From assembly GCA_001983475.1 (NCBI GenBank), contig LJHD01000233.1, positions 1 to 33,977 on the forward strand: a stretch of DNA of 33,977 bases, read 5' to 3'. Made by a program: the position numbers and the translations under genes. The DNA comes from Candidatus Epulonipiscium fishelsonii (GTDB taxonomy: Bacteria; Bacillota; Clostridia; Lachnospirales; Cellulosilyticaceae). Shown here piece after piece: positions 3,281 through 33,792 of this stretch (position 1 is its first letter; the number at the start of each line of letters is the position of its first letter). A model generated the notes under the pieces. That model was not told the DNA's origin, did not search any database, and was given only the letters and a program-made list of their open reading frames with translations.

Positions 3281-4573
3281 TTATGCTTGAATTAATTGTA
3301 GCACAGTGTTTGGTAATTCATTAGCTTTTGAAAGCATCGCTGTTGCACTTTGTGTTAAAACATTTGTACGAGTGTATTCTGCCATTTCCTCTGCCATATC
3401 AGTATCTCGAATTTGTGAAAGTGAAGTTGTCATGTTTTCTTCAGACACACCCAAGTTTTCTACAGTGTGTTCAAGACGGTTTTGATATGCCCCCAAAGCT
3501 GAACGGGTTGAAGAAACTTTATCAATAGCTTCATCAAGAGCCCCAATAGCATAATGTATAGAATCCTCCTCTGTAAAATCTAATCCCGCTCTGGTAATAT
3601 CAATACCTACTCCTTCTTCAATATTAGCAGCCGCACCATATCCAGGTGTTCCTGGACTTGCACTAAGCCCTAGTTTTTGTGAAGACAATGACTCTAATCT
3701 TACCTCTAATAACTGGTTTGCGTTTGCTCCAATTTGAATATTTATATTAGTTTTTGGTATTCCACCATTCGGTGCTATCATATAATTACCTTTACTACCT
3801 CTTTCTTTAGCTGTAAATATATTACTTCCATCAAAATTAAAGTTATCAAACCCTGGAGATGTATCATAATTAGTTAACACATCTTTTGTTGTTCCTGTGT
3901 CCACTCCGTTTACATCTATTGGCACAGCAGAACCTTCATATGGCGCAAGACTTGAATCATAAAATTCAAATACAACACCATCAATAGTAAATCCTGCCCC
4001 TTTTGGTCCTGTAGGAAGCGTTACTTCATATTGAGCATATTCATCAAGTGTAACAAGTCTTAGTCCATCAGTTTCTAAATCTGCTATTTGATTTCCATCT
4101 TTATCCACAGTTCTTTTTAATTCCATCTTAAAACCATCTACCTCAGCAAGTGGTGTTCCTCCATTAAGTAAAGGCATTTGGTTAAACTCTGTATTTCCTG
4201 CTGTTATGTTAATTTCTGAAGTAAGGTGATCAATTTCTTTTTGAATTTGAGCTCTGTCAACTTCTCCATATGTACCATTTGCTGACTGAATTGCAAGCTC
4301 TCTCATACGTTGCAACATGTCATGTACTTCATTTAATGATCCCTCAGCAGTTTGTATCATGGAAATTCCATCCATTGCATTGTCATTCGCTTGTTTAAGT
4401 CCTTGAACTTGTGTTCTCATTTTTTGAGAAATTGCCATTCCTGCAACGTCATCTGCAGCTTTATTGATTTTCAAACCTGAAGATAATTTTTCAAGAGATT
4501 TATTTAATGCCCCTGTGTTTTGGTGTAAAGCATTTAATCCTTGTAAAGCTGGTATATTACTATTAATTTTCAT
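3281..4573 (-). CDS. flagellin (long form, 430 aa)
   Basis: The filament subunit of the flagellum, exported by the flagellar type III system. The N-terminal D0/D1 helices are intact (LEKLSSGLKINKAADDVAGMAISQKM, quoted in part: LSSGLKINKAADDVAG), followed by GISMIQTAEGSLNEVHDML. The C-terminal D1/D0 helices end with RDTDMAEEMAEYTR and LPNTVLQLIQA. Between about residues 140 and 330 is a variable domain that would face the filament surface. ATG follows AGAGGAGTATAAAAT. No convincing sigma-28 promoter is visible: a CGATAT lies about 45 nt upstream of the ATG on the minus strand (4614-4619) but lacks a TAAA box at the right distance. A second, shorter flagellin with clear sigma-28 boxes lies 5 kb away on the other strand. 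No signal peptide, as expected. Confidence 0.95.
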   Translation of the reverse strand: MKINSNIPALQGLNALHQNTGALNKSLEKLSSGLKINKAADDVAGMAISQKMRTQVQGLKQANDNAMDGISMIQTAEGSLNEVHDMLQRMRELAIQSANGTYGEVDRAQIQKEIDHLTSEINITAGNTEFNQMPLLNGGTPLAEVDGFKMELKRTVDKDGNQIADLETDGLRLVTLDEYAQYEVTLPTGPKGAGFTIDGVVFEFYDSSLAPYEGSAVPIDVNGVDTGTTKDVLTNYDTSPGFDNFNFDGSNIFTAKERGSKGNYMIAPNGGIPKTNINIQIGANANQLLEVRLESLSSQKLGLSASPGTPGYGAAANIEEGVGIDITRAGLDFTEEDSIHYAIGALDEAIDKVSSTRSALGAYQNRLEHTVENLGVSEENMTTSLSQIRDTDMAEEMAEYTRTNVLTQSATAMLSKANELPNTVLQLIQA

Positions 4574-4766
4574 ATTTTATACTCCTCTTCTAAAATTTTA
4601 TTCCTACAAAATTATATCGACTAGTTACAATATATATAATAGTATTTTTACAAAATTTAACTTTTTTTGATTGGATCAATTTTAGATATATAATATGCAA
4701 ATTATATAATAATATTATTAGTGTATTATACGCATAAATTATATAATAATAAAAGTATCTCTAGCG

Positions 4767-4796
4767 TTAATCACTAACCATTTAGTTAGTGATTAA
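4767..4796. repeat. perfect 12-bp hairpin in flagellin/amidotransferase gap
   Basis: TTAATCACTAAC and GTTAGTGATTAA form a perfect stem around a 6-nt loop (CATTTA). There is no T-tract on either strand, so it is not a standard terminator, although it lies about 90 nt after the end of the minus-strand amidotransferase gene. The remainder of 4574-4887 is AT-rich, with near-palindromic ATTATATAATAATA tracts and no gene. Confidence 0.6.
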
Positions 4797-4887
4797 TTGA
4801 ATAATATACAAAATATTTTTAGTCTCTATATTTAGAATTTAAAAGAATTAACATTAAACAAGAACTATACGCAAAACTTTTTATTTA

Positions 4888-5607
4888 TTATTTACATGCA
4901 TTAACAAAAGCATTAAACAATGGGTACATATCTTTTGAATGCATAGCCATAATTTCAGGGTGCCATTGCACACCAATACAAAATGGTAAATTAGGATTTT
5001 CTATAGCTTCAACAACATTATCCTTTGTGGTGGCACTAATGATTAAATTATCGCCCAATTTTTTCAAAACTTGATGGTGAAAACTATTGGTAACAAACGT
5101 ATCTCCTAGCAACTCTTTTATTTTAGTATTTTTTCTTGTATATACTGTATGGCACAAATCGCTTCGATGCCCAGATTGCATGTGCATATTTGTTTCTCCT
5201 GGAAAATATTTAATGTCTTGATAAATAGTGCCATTATAAATAACATTTAAAACCTGCATGCCTTTACAAATTCCTAAAATAGGTTTATTTAAAACAATTC
5301 CTTGCTTTCCTAAAAAAATATGGTAATTATCTAATTCCTCATTATAATTTCCAAGCCCTTCTTTTGGTTCTTCTCCGTATAGTAAAGGATAAATATCATC
5401 TCCTCCACCAAGCAAAATTCCATCACATAAATTTGCTTGGGAACAAATTTGCGATTTTCTACTTGTGGGTGGCAACAAAATAGGAACTACACCCATTTGA
5501 AATAAAATTTTACAGTATTCCTCATTTAGATTATAAATTTGTTTACTAAAATTATTAGAAGAAACTATATTATTATTTACTGGAATCCCAATTATAATTT
5601 TTTTCAT
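4888..5607 (-). CDS. class I glutamine amidotransferase / gamma-glutamyl hydrolase (peptidase C26)
   Basis: A 239-aa stand-alone GATase1-fold hydrolase. The nucleophile elbow is PILGICKGMQVL with Cys114, and the His-Glu pair is in GVQWHPE (His216, Glu218). GILLGGGDDIYP near residue 63 is the substrate-side loop of the PuuD/YvdE-like gamma-glutamyl-GABA hydrolase group. Family members cleave gamma-glutamyl amides, for example in putrescine breakdown, but no polyamine genes are nearby, so the substrate is open. It begins at an ATG after AAAGGATGTAAAT, a good ribosome binding site. A TGTTAAGTTAA inverted-repeat element lies 31 bp before the start, inside its leader. It appears to be a single-gene unit. 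Confidence 0.88.
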   Translation of the reverse strand: MKKIIIGIPVNNNIVSSNNFSKQIYNLNEEYCKILFQMGVVPILLPPTSRKSQICSQANLCDGILLGGGDDIYPLLYGEEPKEGLGNYNEELDNYHIFLGKQGIVLNKPILGICKGMQVLNVIYNGTIYQDIKYFPGETNMHMQSGHRSDLCHTVYTRKNTKIKELLGDTFVTNSFHHQVLKKLGDNLIISATTKDNVVEAIENPNLPFCIGVQWHPEIMAMHSKDMYPLFNAFVNACK

Positions 5608-5637
5608 ATATTTACATCCTTTCTATTTATTAGGTCT

Positions 5638-5710
5638 TGTTAAGTTAATTTATGTTAAATTTACTTTATTTTGGCTGGTAGGTACAGGGCATTCGCATTT
5701 TAACTTAACA
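5638..5710. mobile_element. palindromic MITE-like element, TGTTAAGTTAA family, copy 1
   Basis: Perfect 11-bp terminal inverted repeats TGTTAAGTTAA and TTAACTTAACA bound a 73-bp element with a GC-richer core (GGTACAGGGCATTCGC). It lies 31 bp upstream of the minus-strand amidotransferase start. A related element with identical 11-bp ends lies at 17121-17217, and one end recurs at 6019. No clear target-site duplication. Confidence 0.7.
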
Positions 5711-5878
5711 GTTTTGCTTATTATATAATTATTATATGGTTGATAATATAAAGAGGTGTTATAGTAACGCTGGAATATTTTAAGTGATGATATTTACAAC
5801 TATAAAAAATGTGCTGAGTTATTTAATAATATTCATGACCAAATTTGTTATTGTTTATAAGTACAAGTTAAAAATATA

Positions 5879-5907
5879 TTGTCAAAAAACATAATGTATA
5901 GTATAAT
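5879..5907 (+). promoter_or_regulatory. sigma-A-type promoter for the SLH gene
   Basis: TTGTCA at 5879-5884 and TATAAT at 5902-5907 are separated by 17 nt, the optimal spacing. The start codon of the SLH protein is about 240 nt downstream, leaving a long leader. Just before it, 5770-5860 holds an open stretch ending EL-FNNIHDQICYCL in one frame, which may be debris of a gene but is too short to call. Confidence 0.65.
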
Positions 5908-5951
5908 TTTATGGAAAAATAAATTAACATATTGTGTTTCATGTATGAAAT

Positions 5952-6100
5952 TAATGTCATTCATTTACTGATTAATATTCAATATATACTTTGTATATTA
6001 CAAGTGAAACTTCGGAGCTGTTAAGTTAATTGTTTTAAGAATAGGTTTTTACCAACTTTTAAAGTGGAGAGCTGCCCCGAACTCAATATAAATGACATTA
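5952..6100 (+). promoter_or_regulatory. nested inverted repeats in the SLH gene leader
   Basis: TAATGTCATT (5952-5961) is matched perfectly by AATGACATTA (6091-6100). Inside it TTCGG/AGCT (6011-6019) pairs with AGCT/CCGAA (6070-6081), and the inner loop contains TGTTAAGTTAATTG, the end sequence of the palindromic elements at 5638 and 17121. The structure lies wholly between the promoter and the ribosome binding site. It may be a leader RNA element or a decayed insert. Confidence 0.5.
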
Positions 6101-6145
6101 TAAGGTTTTATGAGCACAACATTATACACAAGGAGAAAAAAACAT

Positions 6146-8002
6146 ATGATTAAAAAAATTATTGCTACACTCTTAAGTTTAACAATATCAGCTACACCAA
6201 TTTATGCTGCTGAAAAAGTTGTCTTTAGTGATATATCTCAACATTGGGCAAAATCTAATATTGAGTCATTGACATCCAACAACATTTTAGGAGGCTATCC
6301 AGATGGTACATTTAGGCCAAATGAAAAACTTACAAGAGCTGAATTAGCAGCTTGCTTAAAAAAGATATTTAATATTCCTATTAATATAGAAGGAAAAGAA
6401 TATTATGATGTTGAAGATGGCCAATGGTATAGTGACACAATTGAAACAGTTATGCACTTTGGACTTATGAATGATTACGGCAATGAATTTAAGCCAAAAC
6501 AACCAATCACTAGAGAAGAAGTTGCTTATGCAATTGTGCAGGCTTTTGGAATGAACAGAGAATACATAACAAGAATTAATTCATCTACAAAATTTACAGA
6601 CAGTGACCAAATATCATATTGGGCAAGAAGTGCAGTTGATATTTTGGCTACAAAAGGGTTTCTTATGGGTGACCCTGATGGAAAGCTTCGACCACAATGT
6701 CAAATGACACGAGCCGAAGTTACAATATTGCTTGACCGAGCTATAAAGGAAAGCGGATATAGCTATCCCCGGATGAATATGGATAAAAACGAAGTTGCAG
6801 AAAATAAACATGAAAAAGTTAAAATTATAAAGTATTATAAGGATAGTATTGTTACCAAATCTTCCAGTATATCAAGATGGAATTTTTTAGCAAAACGCAC
6901 TATATTTGAAAAAAATGATATACTACATACTGTTGATATCAATGATAACAAAATTATTATTAATAAATTTAATATGACAACACTTGAAAAAGTAGGTACA
7001 ATATATTTAAACAAGTCATTGCCAATATATGGGGGCTTTTTAGCAACAGAAGATTATTACTTTGTAATATCAGGACAAAACGTAAGGACAACAGAAGAAG
7101 GATACAAGGATAAAGAAGTAATCAATATAGAAAAATATGATAAAAACTTTATTTTAAAAGGAACAACATCTATTAAAGCAGGTGAGATATCTACAACTAA
7201 ACCTTTTGATGTTGGAAATGTGGCTATGAGCTTAGACAACGATAAATTAATTATACATACTAGCCGAACTATGTTTGATGAAAATAATATGCAAAATCCT
7301 CAAGTGCAATTAACTATTCTAATTGATATAGATATGATGGAATATGAAAATTCATATCTGGAAGAGGTCCAAATAAACTATGCACATCCTTCGTTTAATC
7401 AATTTGTTAAATTTGATGGCACACAACCAATCTTGCTTCATCACGGAAATGCACAGCCAAGAGGAATATCAGTTACTAAATATGGCGCAAACGCTAGACC
7501 TATATTTGAAATCCCTGGTACAAAAAAAGCATCTCAAACTGGCCTTACTGTTGGTGGCTTTGAAATTTCGGATAATAAATATTTAACAGCTATAAATCGA
7601 ATTGATTATAATTTAGCAAAAGGATTTTCTAATTTTGTAATTGAAGGATTAAAAAAGCAAGAACGTGATGTAGTTTTATTAATCACTGATAAAAATAAGA
7701 AAACTACAAGGGAAATTAGGTTAACAGATTATGTTGGAACAAATTCAATGGGCAGCACTCCAAAGCTTGTTTCGTTGGGAGAAAACAAATTTATGGTTTT
7801 GTGGATGGAATTTGCTAATGCATATGGATCTGAAGTATTAAGCCAGAGTTTAAAATATATTATTATTGATGAGAATGGAAATAAGTTGAGTGATATAAAC
7901 ACATTTGAAGAAGGAAAACTTTCTGTATATGTTCAACCTATTGTAAAAAACGGAAAAGTTATTTGGGTAGCGGGAGAGTACTATTATTCAATTCAATTAT
8001 AA
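6146..8002 (+). CDS. exported protein with three N-terminal SLH domains and a beta-rich C-terminal region
   Basis: A surface protein of 618 aa. I place the start at the ATG at 6146, not 6110, because AAGGAG lies 9 nt before it and the peptide then opens with a signal sequence (MIKKIIATLLSLTISATPIYA, cut shown as TPIYA|AEK). Three SLH domains follow at about residues 27-70, 88-133 and 150-200, each with the usual pattern such as GGYPDGTFRPNEKLTRAE; these bind secondary cell-wall polymer. From about 230 to 618 the protein has repeated short strands and motifs like FNQFVKFDG and HGNAQPRG, suggestive of a beta-propeller; its function is unknown. It has its own promoter and a structured leader about 240 nt long, and is followed by the TRIC gene after 63 nt. 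Confidence 0.88.
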   Translation: MIKKIIATLLSLTISATPIYAAEKVVFSDISQHWAKSNIESLTSNNILGGYPDGTFRPNEKLTRAELAACLKKIFNIPINIEGKEYYDVEDGQWYSDTIETVMHFGLMNDYGNEFKPKQPITREEVAYAIVQAFGMNREYITRINSSTKFTDSDQISYWARSAVDILATKGFLMGDPDGKLRPQCQMTRAEVTILLDRAIKESGYSYPRMNMDKNEVAENKHEKVKIIKYYKDSIVTKSSSISRWNFLAKRTIFEKNDILHTVDINDNKIIINKFNMTTLEKVGTIYLNKSLPIYGGFLATEDYYFVISGQNVRTTEEGYKDKEVINIEKYDKNFILKGTTSIKAGEISTTKPFDVGNVAMSLDNDKLIIHTSRTMFDENNMQNPQVQLTILIDIDMMEYENSYLEEVQINYAHPSFNQFVKFDGTQPILLHHGNAQPRGISVTKYGANARPIFEIPGTKKASQTGLTVGGFEISDNKYLTAINRIDYNLAKGFSNFVIEGLKKQERDVVLLITDKNKKTTREIRLTDYVGTNSMGSTPKLVSLGENKFMVLWMEFANAYGSEVLSQSLKYIIIDENGNKLSDINTFEEGKLSVYVQPIVKNGKVIWVAGEYYYSIQL

Positions 8003-12030: not shown

Positions 12031-13074
12031 CTATATAGTTGCTAGGTTTAAAAGCTTGTTTACAAGTTGCTTGATATCTATTCCTTCTGCATCAAATAAC
12101 ATGGGATACATGCTTATTGAAGTAAACCCTGGCAAAGTATTAATTTCATTAAATATAACTTCATTATCTTCTGTAACAAAAAAATCAACCCTTGATAACC
12201 CTTTGCATTCTAAAGCTTTAAATATTATTTTAGCATATTCTTTAATTTGATTTTTTGTATTTTCTGGTAAATCTGCAGAAATAATAGTTTTTGAATCTGT
12301 ATTATTATATTTGGCTTCAAAATCATAAAATTCTGCAGCTGCTAAAATTTCTCCAACTCCAGAAACCTGCAAATCTTTATTGCCTAAAATAGCAGTTTCA
12401 ACCTCTCTACCAATAATTGTTTCCTCTACTAAAACTTTATTATCATGAAATAAAGCATTTTTAATTCCTTCAATTAGTTGGTATTTATCATGTGCTTTTG
12501 AAATTCCAACTGAGGAACCAGCATTTGCGGGTTTTATAAAGTATGGGTATCCAAATGCACTTTCAATTTTTTGTATAGCAGCCTCTATATCTTCATCTTC
12601 TTTTACTATAACAAATTTTGCTTGTGGAATTCCAGTTTCCTTTATAATTATTTTTGTAAAGGCTTTATCCATTGAAACTGCAGAAGATAACACCCCACAA
12701 CCAACATAGGGAATTTGAGCTAATTTGCACAGCCCCTGTATTGTTCCGTCTTCTCCATATTTTCCATGAAGAACAGGAAAAACCTTGTCTATTCTAATTT
12801 TTACAACTTCTTCATCTTCACGAGTCAAAATCAATCCACCATCAGTAGCATCTGGACTTAAAACACATGATATGCCCTTGTTTATCCAAACGTTCTTTGT
12901 AAAATCAACTTTTGGGTCTTTGTCTAGTAACCATTTACCATTTTTAGTAATGCCTATTGGATATATATCATACTTTTCTTTATCCAAATTATTAAAAATA
13001 GTTGTTGCTGATTTTAAAGAAACCTCATGTTCAGATGATTGACCTCCAAATAAAAGTAAAATATTTTCTTTCAT
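12031..13074 (-). CDS. ddl: D-alanine--D-alanine ligase
   Basis: Joins two D-alanines with ATP to make the terminal dipeptide of the peptidoglycan precursor. It is 347 aa with the ATP-grasp arrangement: LLFGGQSSEHEVSLKSA at the N-terminus, PVLHGKYGEDGTIQGL near residue 100, a Lys-rich ATP lid around IKPANAGSSVGISKA near residue 180, and FNEINTLPGFTSISMYP near residue 310. The YDFEAKY segment matches normal D-Ala-D-Ala enzymes rather than D-lactate-specific vancomycin-resistance ligases, in which the tyrosine region differs. The start ATG follows TTTGGAGGAAATT. It heads the operon with murI and the DUF1934 gene. Confidence 0.97.
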   Translation of the reverse strand: MKENILLLFGGQSSEHEVSLKSATTIFNNLDKEKYDIYPIGITKNGKWLLDKDPKVDFTKNVWINKGISCVLSPDATDGGLILTREDEEVVKIRIDKVFPVLHGKYGEDGTIQGLCKLAQIPYVGCGVLSSAVSMDKAFTKIIIKETGIPQAKFVIVKEDEDIEAAIQKIESAFGYPYFIKPANAGSSVGISKAHDKYQLIEGIKNALFHDNKVLVEETIIGREVETAILGNKDLQVSGVGEILAAAEFYDFEAKYNNTDSKTIISADLPENTKNQIKEYAKIIFKALECKGLSRVDFFVTEDNEVIFNEINTLPGFTSISMYPMLFDAEGIDIKQLVNKLLNLATI

Positions 13075-13163
13075 AAATTTCCTCCAAAATTATTTTTATC
13101 TATATATTTATATGCAACATTTTTATAATTACATCACTTTACAAGTAATAAATACCAGCTACT

Positions 13164-13214
13164 AAAAGTCTTGAAAATAAAAGATTTTAAAATTCTATTA
13201 CATTCAAGACTTTT
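13164..13214 (-). terminator. terminator of spoIIR
   Basis: Perfect 12-bp inverted repeat AAAAGTCTTGAA/TTCAAGACTTTT beginning 15 nt past the spoIIR stop. It is symmetric and gives short T-runs on both strands. Its loop contains a further AAGATTTTAAAATTCT-type fold. Confidence 0.75.
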
Positions 13215-13228
13215 ATATTTGTTTCCAT

Positions 13229-13846
13229 TTATTTAAACCATTGTAATAGTTTAAATCTAATTTGATATGGATGTTCTACTTGGTAAGATATAATCTTATA
13301 TTGTTCTTCGTTTAATGTGTGCAGCAATTCTTTACCTTCTAGTGACTCAAAACCAGTAGCAGCATCGACATAACATAAAGGAGGGTACATTACGCACCAC
13401 CAATTTTCACCTTCTGCCTCCCCTATTAAAATACGACAAGCTTCATAAGTACCAGCAGGAAAAACAATATCGCCATATGATTTAGTGGGAAACTTTGTTT
13501 CGGCAATTTCTATATGTACTTTATAATCTTTTCCCCAGTTATTTATGACTCGCTTTGAGATTTGTTCTATATTCTTGAAGTTCTGACTAATAAGTTCACG
13601 GCTCTCTTCAATTGAAGTAGCTTGTCTAAGTTTTGGCTCCATAAAAGCTAAAACTGCATCACGTACAGTTTCTTTTAATAACTGATCTTGTGAAGTATTG
13701 CTGTTTGCTAATACATGAAATCTAAGAACATCTTTTCTTAAGATTTCGCTGGTCTTTTTGGCAAATGAATTTGTTCCAACTACTAAAGATAAATTTAATA
13801 ATATTGCAATAACTGCTAAGTTTAATAAATTATGTATAATTCTCAT
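13229..13846 (-). CDS. spoIIR: stage II sporulation protein R
   Basis: A 205-aa secreted signalling protein. In sporulating Firmicutes SpoIIR is made in the forespore under sigma-F and acts across the septum on SpoIIGA to trigger sigma-E processing in the mother cell. The N-terminus is a signal/anchor (NLLNLAVIAILLNLSLVVG). Family motifs are LRFHVLANSNTSQDQLLKE, VRDAVL, and ENWWCVMYPPLCYVD. Its start ATG follows GAGGAG by 6 nt. The length is close to the B. subtilis protein. It is transcribed alone towards ddl with a terminator between. In many Clostridia spoIIR is near ispE and a GntR/FCD gene; here those lie 4-5 kb away on the other strand, a rearranged version of the cluster. Confidence 0.92.
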   Translation of the reverse strand: MRIIHNLLNLAVIAILLNLSLVVGTNSFAKKTSEILRKDVLRFHVLANSNTSQDQLLKETVRDAVLAFMEPKLRQATSIEESRELISQNFKNIEQISKRVINNWGKDYKVHIEIAETKFPTKSYGDIVFPAGTYEACRILIGEAEGENWWCVMYPPLCYVDAATGFESLEGKELLHTLNEEQYKIISYQVEHPYQIRFKLLQWFK

Positions 13847-13882
13847 GAGCTACTCCTCTTCTCCTTTAATTTAATCTAATTA

Positions 13883-13911
13883 AAGTATAGACAGCAAAAA
13901 AAAATTTATAC
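13883..13911 (-). promoter_or_regulatory. possible sigma-F promoter of spoIIR
   Basis: On the minus strand GTATA (13911-13907) is followed after 14 nt by GTCTATACTT (13892-13883), which fits the sigma-F -10 at its G, A, A and T positions. The spacing is slightly short and the second G is missing, so this is tentative; the known sigma-F dependence of spoIIR is the main support. Confidence 0.3.
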
Positions 13912-13984
13912 ATATTTCGAAATTTTTTTTTTAGGCTACAGACTATTCTTTGCATATCGCCTTCTAATAAAATTTCCTTTAATT

Positions 13985-26605: not shown

Positions 26606-26936
26606 GGAATTGACTAGCTAAATGAGAATCAGGAAGTGAATAGCTGGGTGAAAAAGTTAAATATAGATTGGAAGTGAATAGTTGAGCAGAAAAGCTAAGT
26701 GTAGATTGAAAAGCTAAATATAGATTGGAAGTGAATAGTTGAGCAGAAAAGTTAAGTATAGATTGAAATTGACTAGCTAAATGAAAAAGATAGATATAGA
26801 TTGGAAGTGAATAGTTGAGCAGAAAAGTTAAGTATAGATTGAAATTGACTAGCTAAATGAAAAAGCTAAGTATAGATTGGAAGCGACTAGCTGAATGAAA
26901 AAGCCAAGTGTAGATTGGAATTGACTAGCTATGGGA
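26606..26936. repeat. 38-bp tandem repeat array (minisatellite), about nine units
   Basis: The unit reads GGAAGTGAATAGTTGAGCAG, then AAAAGTTAAGTATAGATT. Two subtypes alternate: one with GTGAATAGTTGAGCAG, one with TTGACTAGCTAAATGA. One unit (near 26715) is a half-copy. The 38-bp period is not a multiple of three, and stop codons occur in every unit, so it is not coding. Units abut without unique spacers, which rules out CRISPR. Confidence 0.9.
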
Positions 26937-27158: not shown

Positions 27159-27233
27159 TATTATATACTAAGGTCCCTGGCCAAGGGTTTTTCCTTTGGT
27201 ACTAAAGCATATTTTGCTTTTAAATCACTATTT

Positions 27234-27396
27234 CTTATCACATTTACAATACACTTTCTTTTTATCACATTTACAATTTTTTTGTTGTTAAGTGTTTGCT
27301 ACTTATTCTTTCACGTCTGTTCTACTACTTATTTTTTCGCTCAATTGCTACTTATTTTTTCGCGATTACTCTGCTAATTGTTTTTTTCACATAGCC
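27234..27396. repeat. pyrimidine-rich direct repeats
   Basis: TTATCACATTTACAAT occurs twice (from 27235 and 27262). Then four units of 23-26 bp built on TGCTACTTATTTTTTCGC start at 27297, 27323, 27346 and 27372. The units are strongly T-rich on the plus strand. No frame is open across them. Confidence 0.6.
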
Positions 27397-31374: not shown

Positions 31375-33792
31375 TTAAGCACCACCCTTTTTCACTGGGG
31401 TTCCATCTCGTAGTTGAGAAGACCAAGTTGTAATAACGTTGTCGTTTGGAGTCAGGCCTTCAGTAATAACTATGGTGCTATCATCAAAAATACCTGTTTT
31501 AACATATTGCTTTTCGGCTACGCCGTTTCTATCTACATATACAAATTGTTTACCATCTTCAAAATATACCGCTGTATAAGGAATAGTTAAAACTTCACTT
31601 ACTTTGTGTGTATCAGTATTAACTATAACACTTACACCATTTGGAATTGTACCTTGAGAAACATCAACAGTAGCAACTATTTCAAAAAGAGATGTTTGAT
31701 GATCCATATTTGGATCAATTTCAAAAATATGCCCACTGTATTTTTGGCTGTCATATGTAACTATTATTTCTTGGCTAATGCTAAGAGTATCTTTGATTTC
31801 TTGACTTACATAAAATGTTACTTCCATATTAGTATAATCTGATATAACACAAGCAGCATTTGAATTGCTAACAGGATTATTTTCTTCGACATTAACTTCA
31901 TCTACAACTCCATTTACAGGAGATTTTACAATTAATTCATTAAGCAAATAATCAGCATTTTCAATACCTATACTAGCGGTATTTAGTTGTTCGGTATATG
32001 CATCTTCAATTAAAGGTTTTGAATTTTGTGCAGCTGATAAAGAGAGTTCCACTTGCTTGATTTGTTCATTATAGCTATCTATGGTCATACTTAAACCTTG
32101 ATTTGCTTGGTCAATTGCTATTTGTGCTTGTTTAATTTGTTCGTCATAGCTATTTCTGGTTAAATTTATAGCTTCTTCTGCTTGACTAATTCCCAAAAGG
32201 GCCTGTGAAAGTTGTTCTGCATAACTGTTATTCACCAAGCTAACTGCTTCTTCCGCTTGACTAATTCCTAACAGAGCCTGATCAATTTGTTCTTTGTAAG
32301 CTATATGTGTATTTTCGACTGCTTGCTGTGCTTGTTCAACGCCTAACAGAGCCTGATCAATCTGTTCGTCATAAGCACTCATTGCATCATTAATAGATTG
32401 AGTGCTGGAAATCATATAGATATCTTCCAGTATTTTTAGTTGGTCTTCAAGCCCTTTTATAGTTTCTTCTGTCAACTCTCCAGCATTATCAACTTGAATT
32501 TCAGCATTTTCAAATCCGTCTTCCATCTGTTCAAATATTGCTTCGTTTTGGACTTCTTCAGTTTTTGCTTCAGTATAGTTTTCTTGGGCATCTGCAAAAT
32601 CTTTTTGAGCATCAGTTGCTTCTTCTGACAATTCAAATAAATCATATGTTGATAAACCTTCAATTTCGGCATAATACATTGCATAGAAAATTTCTGATAT
32701 ACTATTTATTACAGATTGAGGAAATCCGTCTTCAACTGTAAAATTAATTGCATCATTAATATCTACCCCTGCCAAAGCTGGTACAGAACTTTGAAGAAGA
32801 GCGTATTTCTCTGCTAGTGTTTTTGCTGTTGAAAGTTTAATTTGTGCATCTTCATAAGCTTCCAAAGCTTCATCTAACAACTTATCTTCATCTTCAGCCG
32901 TATTTTTAGCATCATCAAAATCAGTTTTGGCTTCTTCAACATCATCTGAAACCTTGCCAAGATCATCTTCAGCTTGCCGTAGCTGCAATTTAGCATTGGC
33001 TATATTGTTTTTTAATGTTTGAATTTGGTTTTCAAGCTCTAGCAGTTGCATATCAATTCCTGCTCCAACAGATTGGTCACGTGATACAATTAACTGATTA
33101 TATCCTACATTTGCATTATTAGCAACGTTTTCGGCCTGGATTACAGCTTGCTCTTGAGCGACAAGTAGTTGCTCATAGCTTTTATACGCATTATCGACAG
33201 TGTTTTTAGCTTGAGTTGTGGCTTGCTCTTGAGAGACAAGTACTTGGTCATATCCTTTTTTTGCGTTGTTTATTGTGTTTTGCGCTTGTGTAAGTGCTTG
33301 CTCTTTTGCCAGGACGGCTTGGTTATAGGCTTGATTTGCGTTGGTTATATTGTTTCGAGCCTGAATTATAGCTTGGTCACGTGCTAAAAGTAATTGATTA
33401 TAAGATGCTTGAGCAGTTTCGATGTCCAGGGTGGCTTTTAATAAAGCTTGGTTTTTACTGGCTTGAAGTTGATTGTAACTAGCTTCGGCTTGAGCACGTG
33501 AAAGTGATTGTGTATCGTTTCTCATTGTAAAAAGAACTTCCCCTTGTGTAACGGTATCTCCTTCTGTAACATTAATTTTATCAACAATTCCCATCATTGA
33601 AGAAAAGATATAGGTAGTTTCTTTTGGAGACATAGTTCCCATAAAGTCTTCGTTTAAAGAAATCTCTTTATCAGAAGGATGTACAGTTTGAACTATAAGG
33701 GATGCTGTTGAAGTAGGTACAACTTCTTTTTGTGAACAGCCTATAAGACTTATACTACATAATAAAAATAAAGCTTTTTTATATATTTTCAT
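31375..33792 (-). CDS. RND periplasmic-adaptor-type lipoprotein with very long repeated coiled-coil arms
   Basis: The membrane fusion partner of the RND pump, 805 aa, roughly twice the usual 350-450. A lipoprotein signal ends LLCSISLIGC with Cys19. The lipoyl/barrel halves flank a giant hairpin: SMMGIVDKINVTEGDTVTQG (about 66-85) and SPVNGVVDEVNVEENNPVSN (about 628-648). The N-terminal arm has five 25-residue repeats from Tyr106 (starts 106, 131, 156, 181, 206, part at 231) of the Y-NQLLVAQEQA-TQA-N type; the C-terminal arm has five from Tyr474 (474, 499, 524, 549, 574, part at 599) like YKEQIDQALLGISQAEEA. The tip (about 240-470) is acidic helical. Beta-barrel and membrane-proximal domains follow to the end. 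AAAGGA precedes the ATG. Confidence 0.9.
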   Translation of the reverse strand: MKIYKKALFLLCSISLIGCSQKEVVPTSTASLIVQTVHPSDKEISLNEDFMGTMSPKETTYIFSSMMGIVDKINVTEGDTVTQGEVLFTMRNDTQSLSRAQAEASYNQLQASKNQALLKATLDIETAQASYNQLLLARDQAIIQARNNITNANQAYNQAVLAKEQALTQAQNTINNAKKGYDQVLVSQEQATTQAKNTVDNAYKSYEQLLVAQEQAVIQAENVANNANVGYNQLIVSRDQSVGAGIDMQLLELENQIQTLKNNIANAKLQLRQAEDDLGKVSDDVEEAKTDFDDAKNTAEDEDKLLDEALEAYEDAQIKLSTAKTLAEKYALLQSSVPALAGVDINDAINFTVEDGFPQSVINSISEIFYAMYYAEIEGLSTYDLFELSEEATDAQKDFADAQENYTEAKTEEVQNEAIFEQMEDGFENAEIQVDNAGELTEETIKGLEDQLKILEDIYMISSTQSINDAMSAYDEQIDQALLGVEQAQQAVENTHIAYKEQIDQALLGISQAEEAVSLVNNSYAEQLSQALLGISQAEEAINLTRNSYDEQIKQAQIAIDQANQGLSMTIDSYNEQIKQVELSLSAAQNSKPLIEDAYTEQLNTASIGIENADYLLNELIVKSPVNGVVDEVNVEENNPVSNSNAACVISDYTNMEVTFYVSQEIKDTLSISQEIIVTYDSQKYSGHIFEIDPNMDHQTSLFEIVATVDVSQGTIPNGVSVIVNTDTHKVSEVLTIPYTAVYFEDGKQFVYVDRNGVAEKQYVKTGIFDDSTIVITEGLTPNDNVITTWSSQLRDGTPVKKGGA

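Follow-up and report, generated by a model that had tools for sequence, protein, structure and literature searches.

An RND pump adaptor of Candidatus Epulonipiscium fishelsonii carries 25-residue blocks added equally to both hairpin arms, apparently letting the pump reach across a thick wall without an outer membrane

The adaptor gene and its surroundings

The window analyzed here is the whole stretch of 33,977 nucleotides of contig LJHD01000233.1 from Candidatus Epulonipiscium fishelsonii. Two adjoining genes of a transport system lie towards its end:

31375..33792, minus strand: gene for an RND adaptor (membrane fusion protein) of 805 aa with an ATG start, recognized by profile TIGR01730
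28413..31385, minus strand: gene for an RND permease (ACR_tran, 579.7 bits), whose listed GTG start gives an 11-base overlap with the adaptor stop

The adaptor scored 133 bits against the RND_mfp profile TIGR01730 (cut-off 94.9, E = 1.1e-38), with further domain matches to HlyD_3 and Biotin_lipoyl_2, and its lipobox cysteine, Cys19, was invariant in eight homologues. An RND permease adjoined the adaptor in the window and in every long-armed homologue examined, and this gene order was kept in genomes G013, G022 and G014 and in genus g3. Profile and gene order both place the protein in the RND adaptor family, in agreement with the original prediction, which had been made from the sequence alone. 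The window also encodes the sporulation protein SpoIIR and S-layer-homology (SLH) proteins, with flagellins nearby, and 185 bases of contig remain upstream of the adaptor gene. An Rfam search of the window returned no matches, and a search for related loci in genome contigs gave one weak relative only.

Several other features of the neighborhood were recorded. Tandem DNA repeats occupy window positions 26632-26931 (38/57 bp units) and 27219-27386 (units of ~26 bp), both inside a 2.4-kb stretch that has no long ORF and lies between rmlD and an HD-domain gene. At the corresponding locus of G013 (L049), the interval from the HD-domain gene to the permease holds two near-identical 410-aa genes (4441-5670 and 5736-6965) that are absent there in the window, and the region upstream of the adaptor (12448-13934), which in the window would fall beyond the contig end, encodes a probable TetR-type regulator and a probably secreted protein of 267 aa. 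The RND permease ORFs at three g3 loci (L051 8875-12630, L054 8504-12079 and L053 9056-12340) specify 1095-1252 aa, compared with 990 aa for the window permease.

Repeats and predicted fold of the two arms

Segments of the 805-residue adaptor were delimited by sequence, profile matches, homologue alignment, repeat analysis and an AlphaFold2 model, as follows:

33736..33792, minus strand: lipoprotein signal, residues 1-19, ending in LIGC (sequence; Cys19 invariant in 8 homologues)
33520..33657, minus strand: N-terminal beta region with the first lipoyl half (Biotin_lipoyl_2), residues 46-91 (profile and AlphaFold2)
33091..33516, minus strand: N arm of the proximal hairpin, residues 93-234, a single predicted helix of 142 residues (AlphaFold2)
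33103..33477, minus strand: N-arm repeats, five units of 25 aa at residues 106-230, with a partial sixth at 231-243 (repeat count and lag analysis)
33049..33090, minus strand: break with the conserved Gly243, residues 235-248 (homologue alignment and AlphaFold2)
32785..33048, minus strand: predicted outgoing helix of the distal, heptad hairpin, residues 249-336 (AlphaFold2 and hydropathy period)
32644..32784, minus strand: predicted distal tip without Arg, residues 337-383 (AlphaFold2 and sequence)
32410..32643, minus strand: predicted returning helix of the distal hairpin, residues 384-461 (AlphaFold2 and hydropathy period)
32368..32409, minus strand: predicted break facing that of the N arm, residues 462-475, mirror sum about 711 (AlphaFold2 and mirrored pLDDT)
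31939..32367, minus strand: C arm of the proximal hairpin, residues 476-618, a single predicted helix of 143 residues (AlphaFold2)
31999..32373, minus strand: C-arm repeats, five units of 25 aa at residues 474-598, with a divergent sixth at 599-623 (repeat count and lag analysis)
31378..31932, minus strand: second lipoyl half, beta-barrel and membrane-proximal domains (HlyD_3, RND_mfp), residues 621-805 (profiles and AlphaFold2)

The repeats of the N arm begin at Y106, 131, 156, 181 and 206, with the partial sixth at 231, and those of the C arm at Y474, 499, 524, 549 and 574. At a lag of 25 residues, the N arm had an identity of 47% and a mean BLOSUM score of 2.48, and the C arm 44% and 2.14; the maxima among 1000 shuffles, each scored by the best of 57 lags, were 0.43 and 0.24, respectively. 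The arm repeats are far above chance, and the five full units counted earlier from Tyr106 and the five from Tyr474 were recovered at exactly those starts. Hydropathy varied with a period of 3.570 residues in the N arm and 3.555 in the C arm, that is 25/7, the value expected for a unit of two heptads plus one hendecad (7+7+11), which is how the unit had been read at the outset. Set against the 3.6 residues of a helical turn, this period would impose only a slow supercoil and leave the arms nearly straight. The 25-residue unit is a clean natural case of a near-straight coiled coil and of in-register lengthening of both arms.

The AlphaFold2 model (alignment of 8 sequences, mean pLDDT 72, pTM 0.29) placed the helices of residues 93-618 as an insertion between the lipoyl halves, with Biotin_lipoyl_2 matching residues 64-90 and HlyD_3 starting at residue 622. 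The distance from base to break was 151 residues on each arm (break centers 243 and 468), and the pLDDT blocks of the two halves were mirror-correlated, with r = 0.94 at a residue sum of 711 in the window adaptor and r = 0.93 at 813 in its longer homologue L048. Arms of equal length would give just these sums, and the correlation dropped on both sides of each. The helices and the mirrored register of the arms are predicted, and the arms would probably pair antiparallel; the model, read through its helix limits and confidence values, gave no sign of a fold with unpaired arms, which would have spoken against a hairpin. The matched-arm hairpin proposed originally was supported in its equal predicted helices and mirrored breaks, but the proposal had overlooked what lies between the arms, which are not directly joined: ~230 residues separate the two repeat sets and are predicted to form a second hairpin (249-461) with a mostly non-helical tip of 47 residues. 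This distal hairpin has a heptad-like period of 3.47 residues. The adaptors MexA, AcrA, MacA and BesA ranked among the top Foldseek matches.

Arm lengths among homologues and across the lineage

To compare arm lengths, we measured full-length family homologues, taking the N arm from unit 1 to the motif 'QIxTLKN' and the C arm from 'LExxL..LE.IY' to 'SPxxG'. The N/C counts of units of exactly 25 residues were 3/4 (G014), 4/5 (five g3 genomes), 6/7 (the window and G013, both g1) and 8/9 (G022), and these four counts, from four genera of one clade, contained no out-of-step residue or indel; the constant offset of one follows from the choice of landmarks. A matrix of unit identities indicated that the end units are orthologous across genera and that the inner units alone multiply, with N/C counts of 1/1, 4/4 and 6/6. 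In g3 the repeats have diverged almost past recognition, yet the 4/5 units are retained in all five genomes without any indel, and such strong divergence at exact spacing suggests that both the length and the register of the arms are under selection. Growth of the two arms in step is shown by this series: the survey of homologues that had been set beforehand as a check found unit counts that co-vary and met no homologue with unequal arms, so that the predicted paired gain of units held in four genera. Outside the clade, the N-arm query against 392 genomes of the order matched within the clade only, and the C-arm query against 391 genomes of the class matched the window and short-armed relatives only.

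Paired lengthening was observed a second time in a separate adaptor. The window genome (G000) also encodes a MacA-like ABC-pump adaptor, which has heptad repeats and a TolC-like neighbor. Counted from lipoyl to tip and from tip to lipoyl, its arms had 99/97 residues in nearly all of the short-armed genera that were checked, the value in g6 being 98/97, and 151/150 (G014), 206/202 (G000) and 220/216 (G013) in the long-armed clade. Between the congeneric G000 and G013, the difference was exactly +14/+14, or two heptads per arm, with the remaining hairpin unchanged. The gene cluster (L055, G000:C112 4251-10061; L067, G013:C89 5230-11510) comprises the MacA-like adaptor, an ABC ATPase, a MacB-like permease and a TolC-like protein of ~380 aa. 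The C-terminal third of the G013 adaptor (L067 5230-8316) carries a repeated 'RSGDGITTEKR...' tail, and the G000 copy carries an acidic tail of 'ATEDE' repeats.

We then measured hairpin spans in 61 adaptors with an HlyD_3 domain. All 16 measured adaptors of the clade formed by g1, g3, g4 and g8 spanned 286-630 aa, compared with 122-297 aa for the 45 adaptors of the sister genera g2, g5, g6 and g9. In the RpoB tree the long-armed genera make up one side of a branch (support 100/99), and three adaptor classes with differing repeat types are long within the clade and short outside it. Since all adaptors of the clade are long and the clade corresponds to one RpoB branch, the elongation is one lineage-level change affecting at least three adaptor classes rather than a quirk of a single pump, and it counts as a single phylogenetic event, so that the p value of a Mann-Whitney comparison of the spans, being blind to phylogeny, does not amount to a test. 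The third class is made up of adaptors with giant hairpins (L128, L129, L130, L131 and L132; 743-942 aa) of a 'DIADLEDDY'-type coiled coil and occurs in g3, g4 and g8. The presence of an S-layer was considered as a discriminator between long- and short-armed genera and was ruled out: SLH proteins occurred in 24/24 family genomes, and an S-layer by itself therefore does not account for the elongation.

Possible roles of the long hairpin and comparison with known systems

Omp85 was matched in none of the 24 family genomes (the window genome bin being 76% complete and G013 97%) compared with 7 of 14 controls, so the bacterium most likely lacks an outer membrane, and the presence of one was rejected on this ground. 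Despite the absence of Omp85, the family often encodes helical proteins of the TolC family (OEP) with ~350 aa; they were matched in 17/24 family genomes, including the window's own, where the match lies beside the ABC adaptor, and none was matched in the long-armed g3 and g8 genomes. The tip of the window adaptor (residues 337-383) contains no Arg and thus lacks the canonical TolC-docking motif of the RLS type. At the RND adaptor loci inspected, none of the OEP matches lay beside the pump and no OMF-like gene was recognized there, the sequence available upstream in the window being the 185 bases to the contig end. The window adaptor lacks the outer-membrane-dependent features of a tripartite pump for which we tested.

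We favor, at a probability of roughly 0.6, a modular RND adaptor hairpin of adjustable length that spans the wall as a stalk or a duct, in which the wall crossing, the oligomer and the cargo path are what we infer. The adaptor would be lipid-anchored in the cytoplasmic membrane, with its lipoyl, barrel and membrane-proximal domains seated on the permease and a very long antiparallel hairpin of two storeys directed outwards. The proximal storey would be the nearly straight coiled coil of 25-residue units (7+7+11), and the distal storey the heptad hairpin, bearing a tip without the usual TolC-docking motif. Equal gain or loss of units on both arms would keep the mid-hairpin break and the distal hairpin in register, so that unit number could serve as a ruler for reach at 3.7 nm per paired unit, with a predicted reach of ~36 nm for the window adaptor (151 + 88 residues at 0.149 nm; 22.5 + 13). 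The hairpins, probably arranged as a ring or bundle at the pump mouth, would carry or shield an export path through the thick wall towards the S-layer. As proposed originally, the hairpin may cross the wall or S-layer to guide export, a possibility that gains in likelihood from the absence of Omp85 and the length of all adaptors of the clade. A broader version, which we hold tentatively and consider doubtful on balance, is that the whole clade lengthened its pump adaptor hairpins in at least three classes using different units (25-mer, heptad and other), with conduit length matched to envelope thickness by paired repeats.

The main rival to an export path, which we judge unlikely but the strongest of the alternatives, is that the hairpin acts as a stalk, tether or folding cage, holding the distal tip far out to bind the wall, the S-layer or a partner, or shielding cargo. 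It would account for a tip without an OMF-docking motif and for the lack of a recognizable OMF-like gene beside the pump at the loci inspected, and it gains from a Foldseek match to PrgA, a Gram-positive protein reported by its authors to extend far outside the cell, and from the foldase role for Gram-positive adaptor hairpins proposed in a review (PMC4446572). However, all genera keep the pairing with the permease, and an ABC adaptor with a canonical docking tip and a TolC-like neighbor has likewise been lengthened in the clade. We regard as improbable a neutral or near-neutral length polymorphism, in which coiled-coil repeats slip, selection purges mismatched arms only and total length has no meaning: multiplication of inner rather than end units is what array slippage would give, and each genus has its own unit number, but the five g3 genomes hold 4/5 units without an indel despite repeat divergence, and three adaptor classes with different repeats are all long in the clade and short elsewhere. 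We consider very improbable a tripartite pump of the ordinary kind, bridging a longer distance to an OMF-like partner encoded elsewhere, for which the OEP matches, that of the window genome among them, would provide candidates, but which is opposed by the absence of such matches in long-armed g3 and g8, by Omp85 in 0/24 genomes and by a tip without Arg or the usual motif.

The adaptor literature leaves open why cells without an outer membrane retain long hairpins. The lengthened adaptor described here provides a natural series whose predicted reach runs from about 24 nm (g4, L050) to 43 nm (g8, L048), with a constant increment of 3.7 nm, and close relatives have short hairpins. A role in spanning the wall can therefore be put to a direct test, by imaging and by the gain or loss of unit pairs.

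Like AcrA and MexA (TIGR01730), the window adaptor has a lipoprotein anchor, a split lipoyl domain with an inserted helical hairpin, beta-barrel and membrane-proximal domains and a paired RND permease; unlike them, it has a hairpin span of 533 aa, tandem 25-aa units, two storeys, no RLS-type tip and most likely no outer membrane, and its predicted ~36 nm compares with 47 Å for MexA and 58 Å for AcrA (PMC4158417). EmrA of Aquifex aeolicus, whose 'exceptionally long' hairpin comprises 168 residues over 127 Å, with 11 heptads per helix and isolated phase shifts (PMC4158417), shares stutters in both helices and the antiparallel two-stranded coiled coil predicted for the window adaptor, whereas the window adaptor is about three times as long and has a stutter in every 25-aa unit, which bears out the unusual length originally claimed for it. 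Long hairpins are also found in Gram-positive adaptors of the MesE, PlnH and ComB type, whose cells lack an outer membrane, and the available text of one review describes these 'extremely large hairpin domains' as hard to explain and records heptad-wise lengthening of both adaptor helices (PMC4446572); they are ABC-transporter adaptors, and that text does not describe a modular 25-residue unit or co-variation of unit number for them. An older view held the adaptor hairpin to be dispensable in some Gram-positives (PMC2850547). Enterococcal PrgA (PDB 6z9l) resembles the window adaptor as a long helical stalk on a Gram-positive surface, but it is not a pump adaptor, and the Foldseek match reflects general helical shape only (TM 0.17, rmsd 105 Å). 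Long Gram-positive adaptor hairpins and their heptad-wise growth are thus already known; we found no description of 25-residue units in adaptors in the open-access literature, and nothing within the literature searched seems to anticipate this unit, the range of sizes, the exact pairing of units or the elongation across the lineage.
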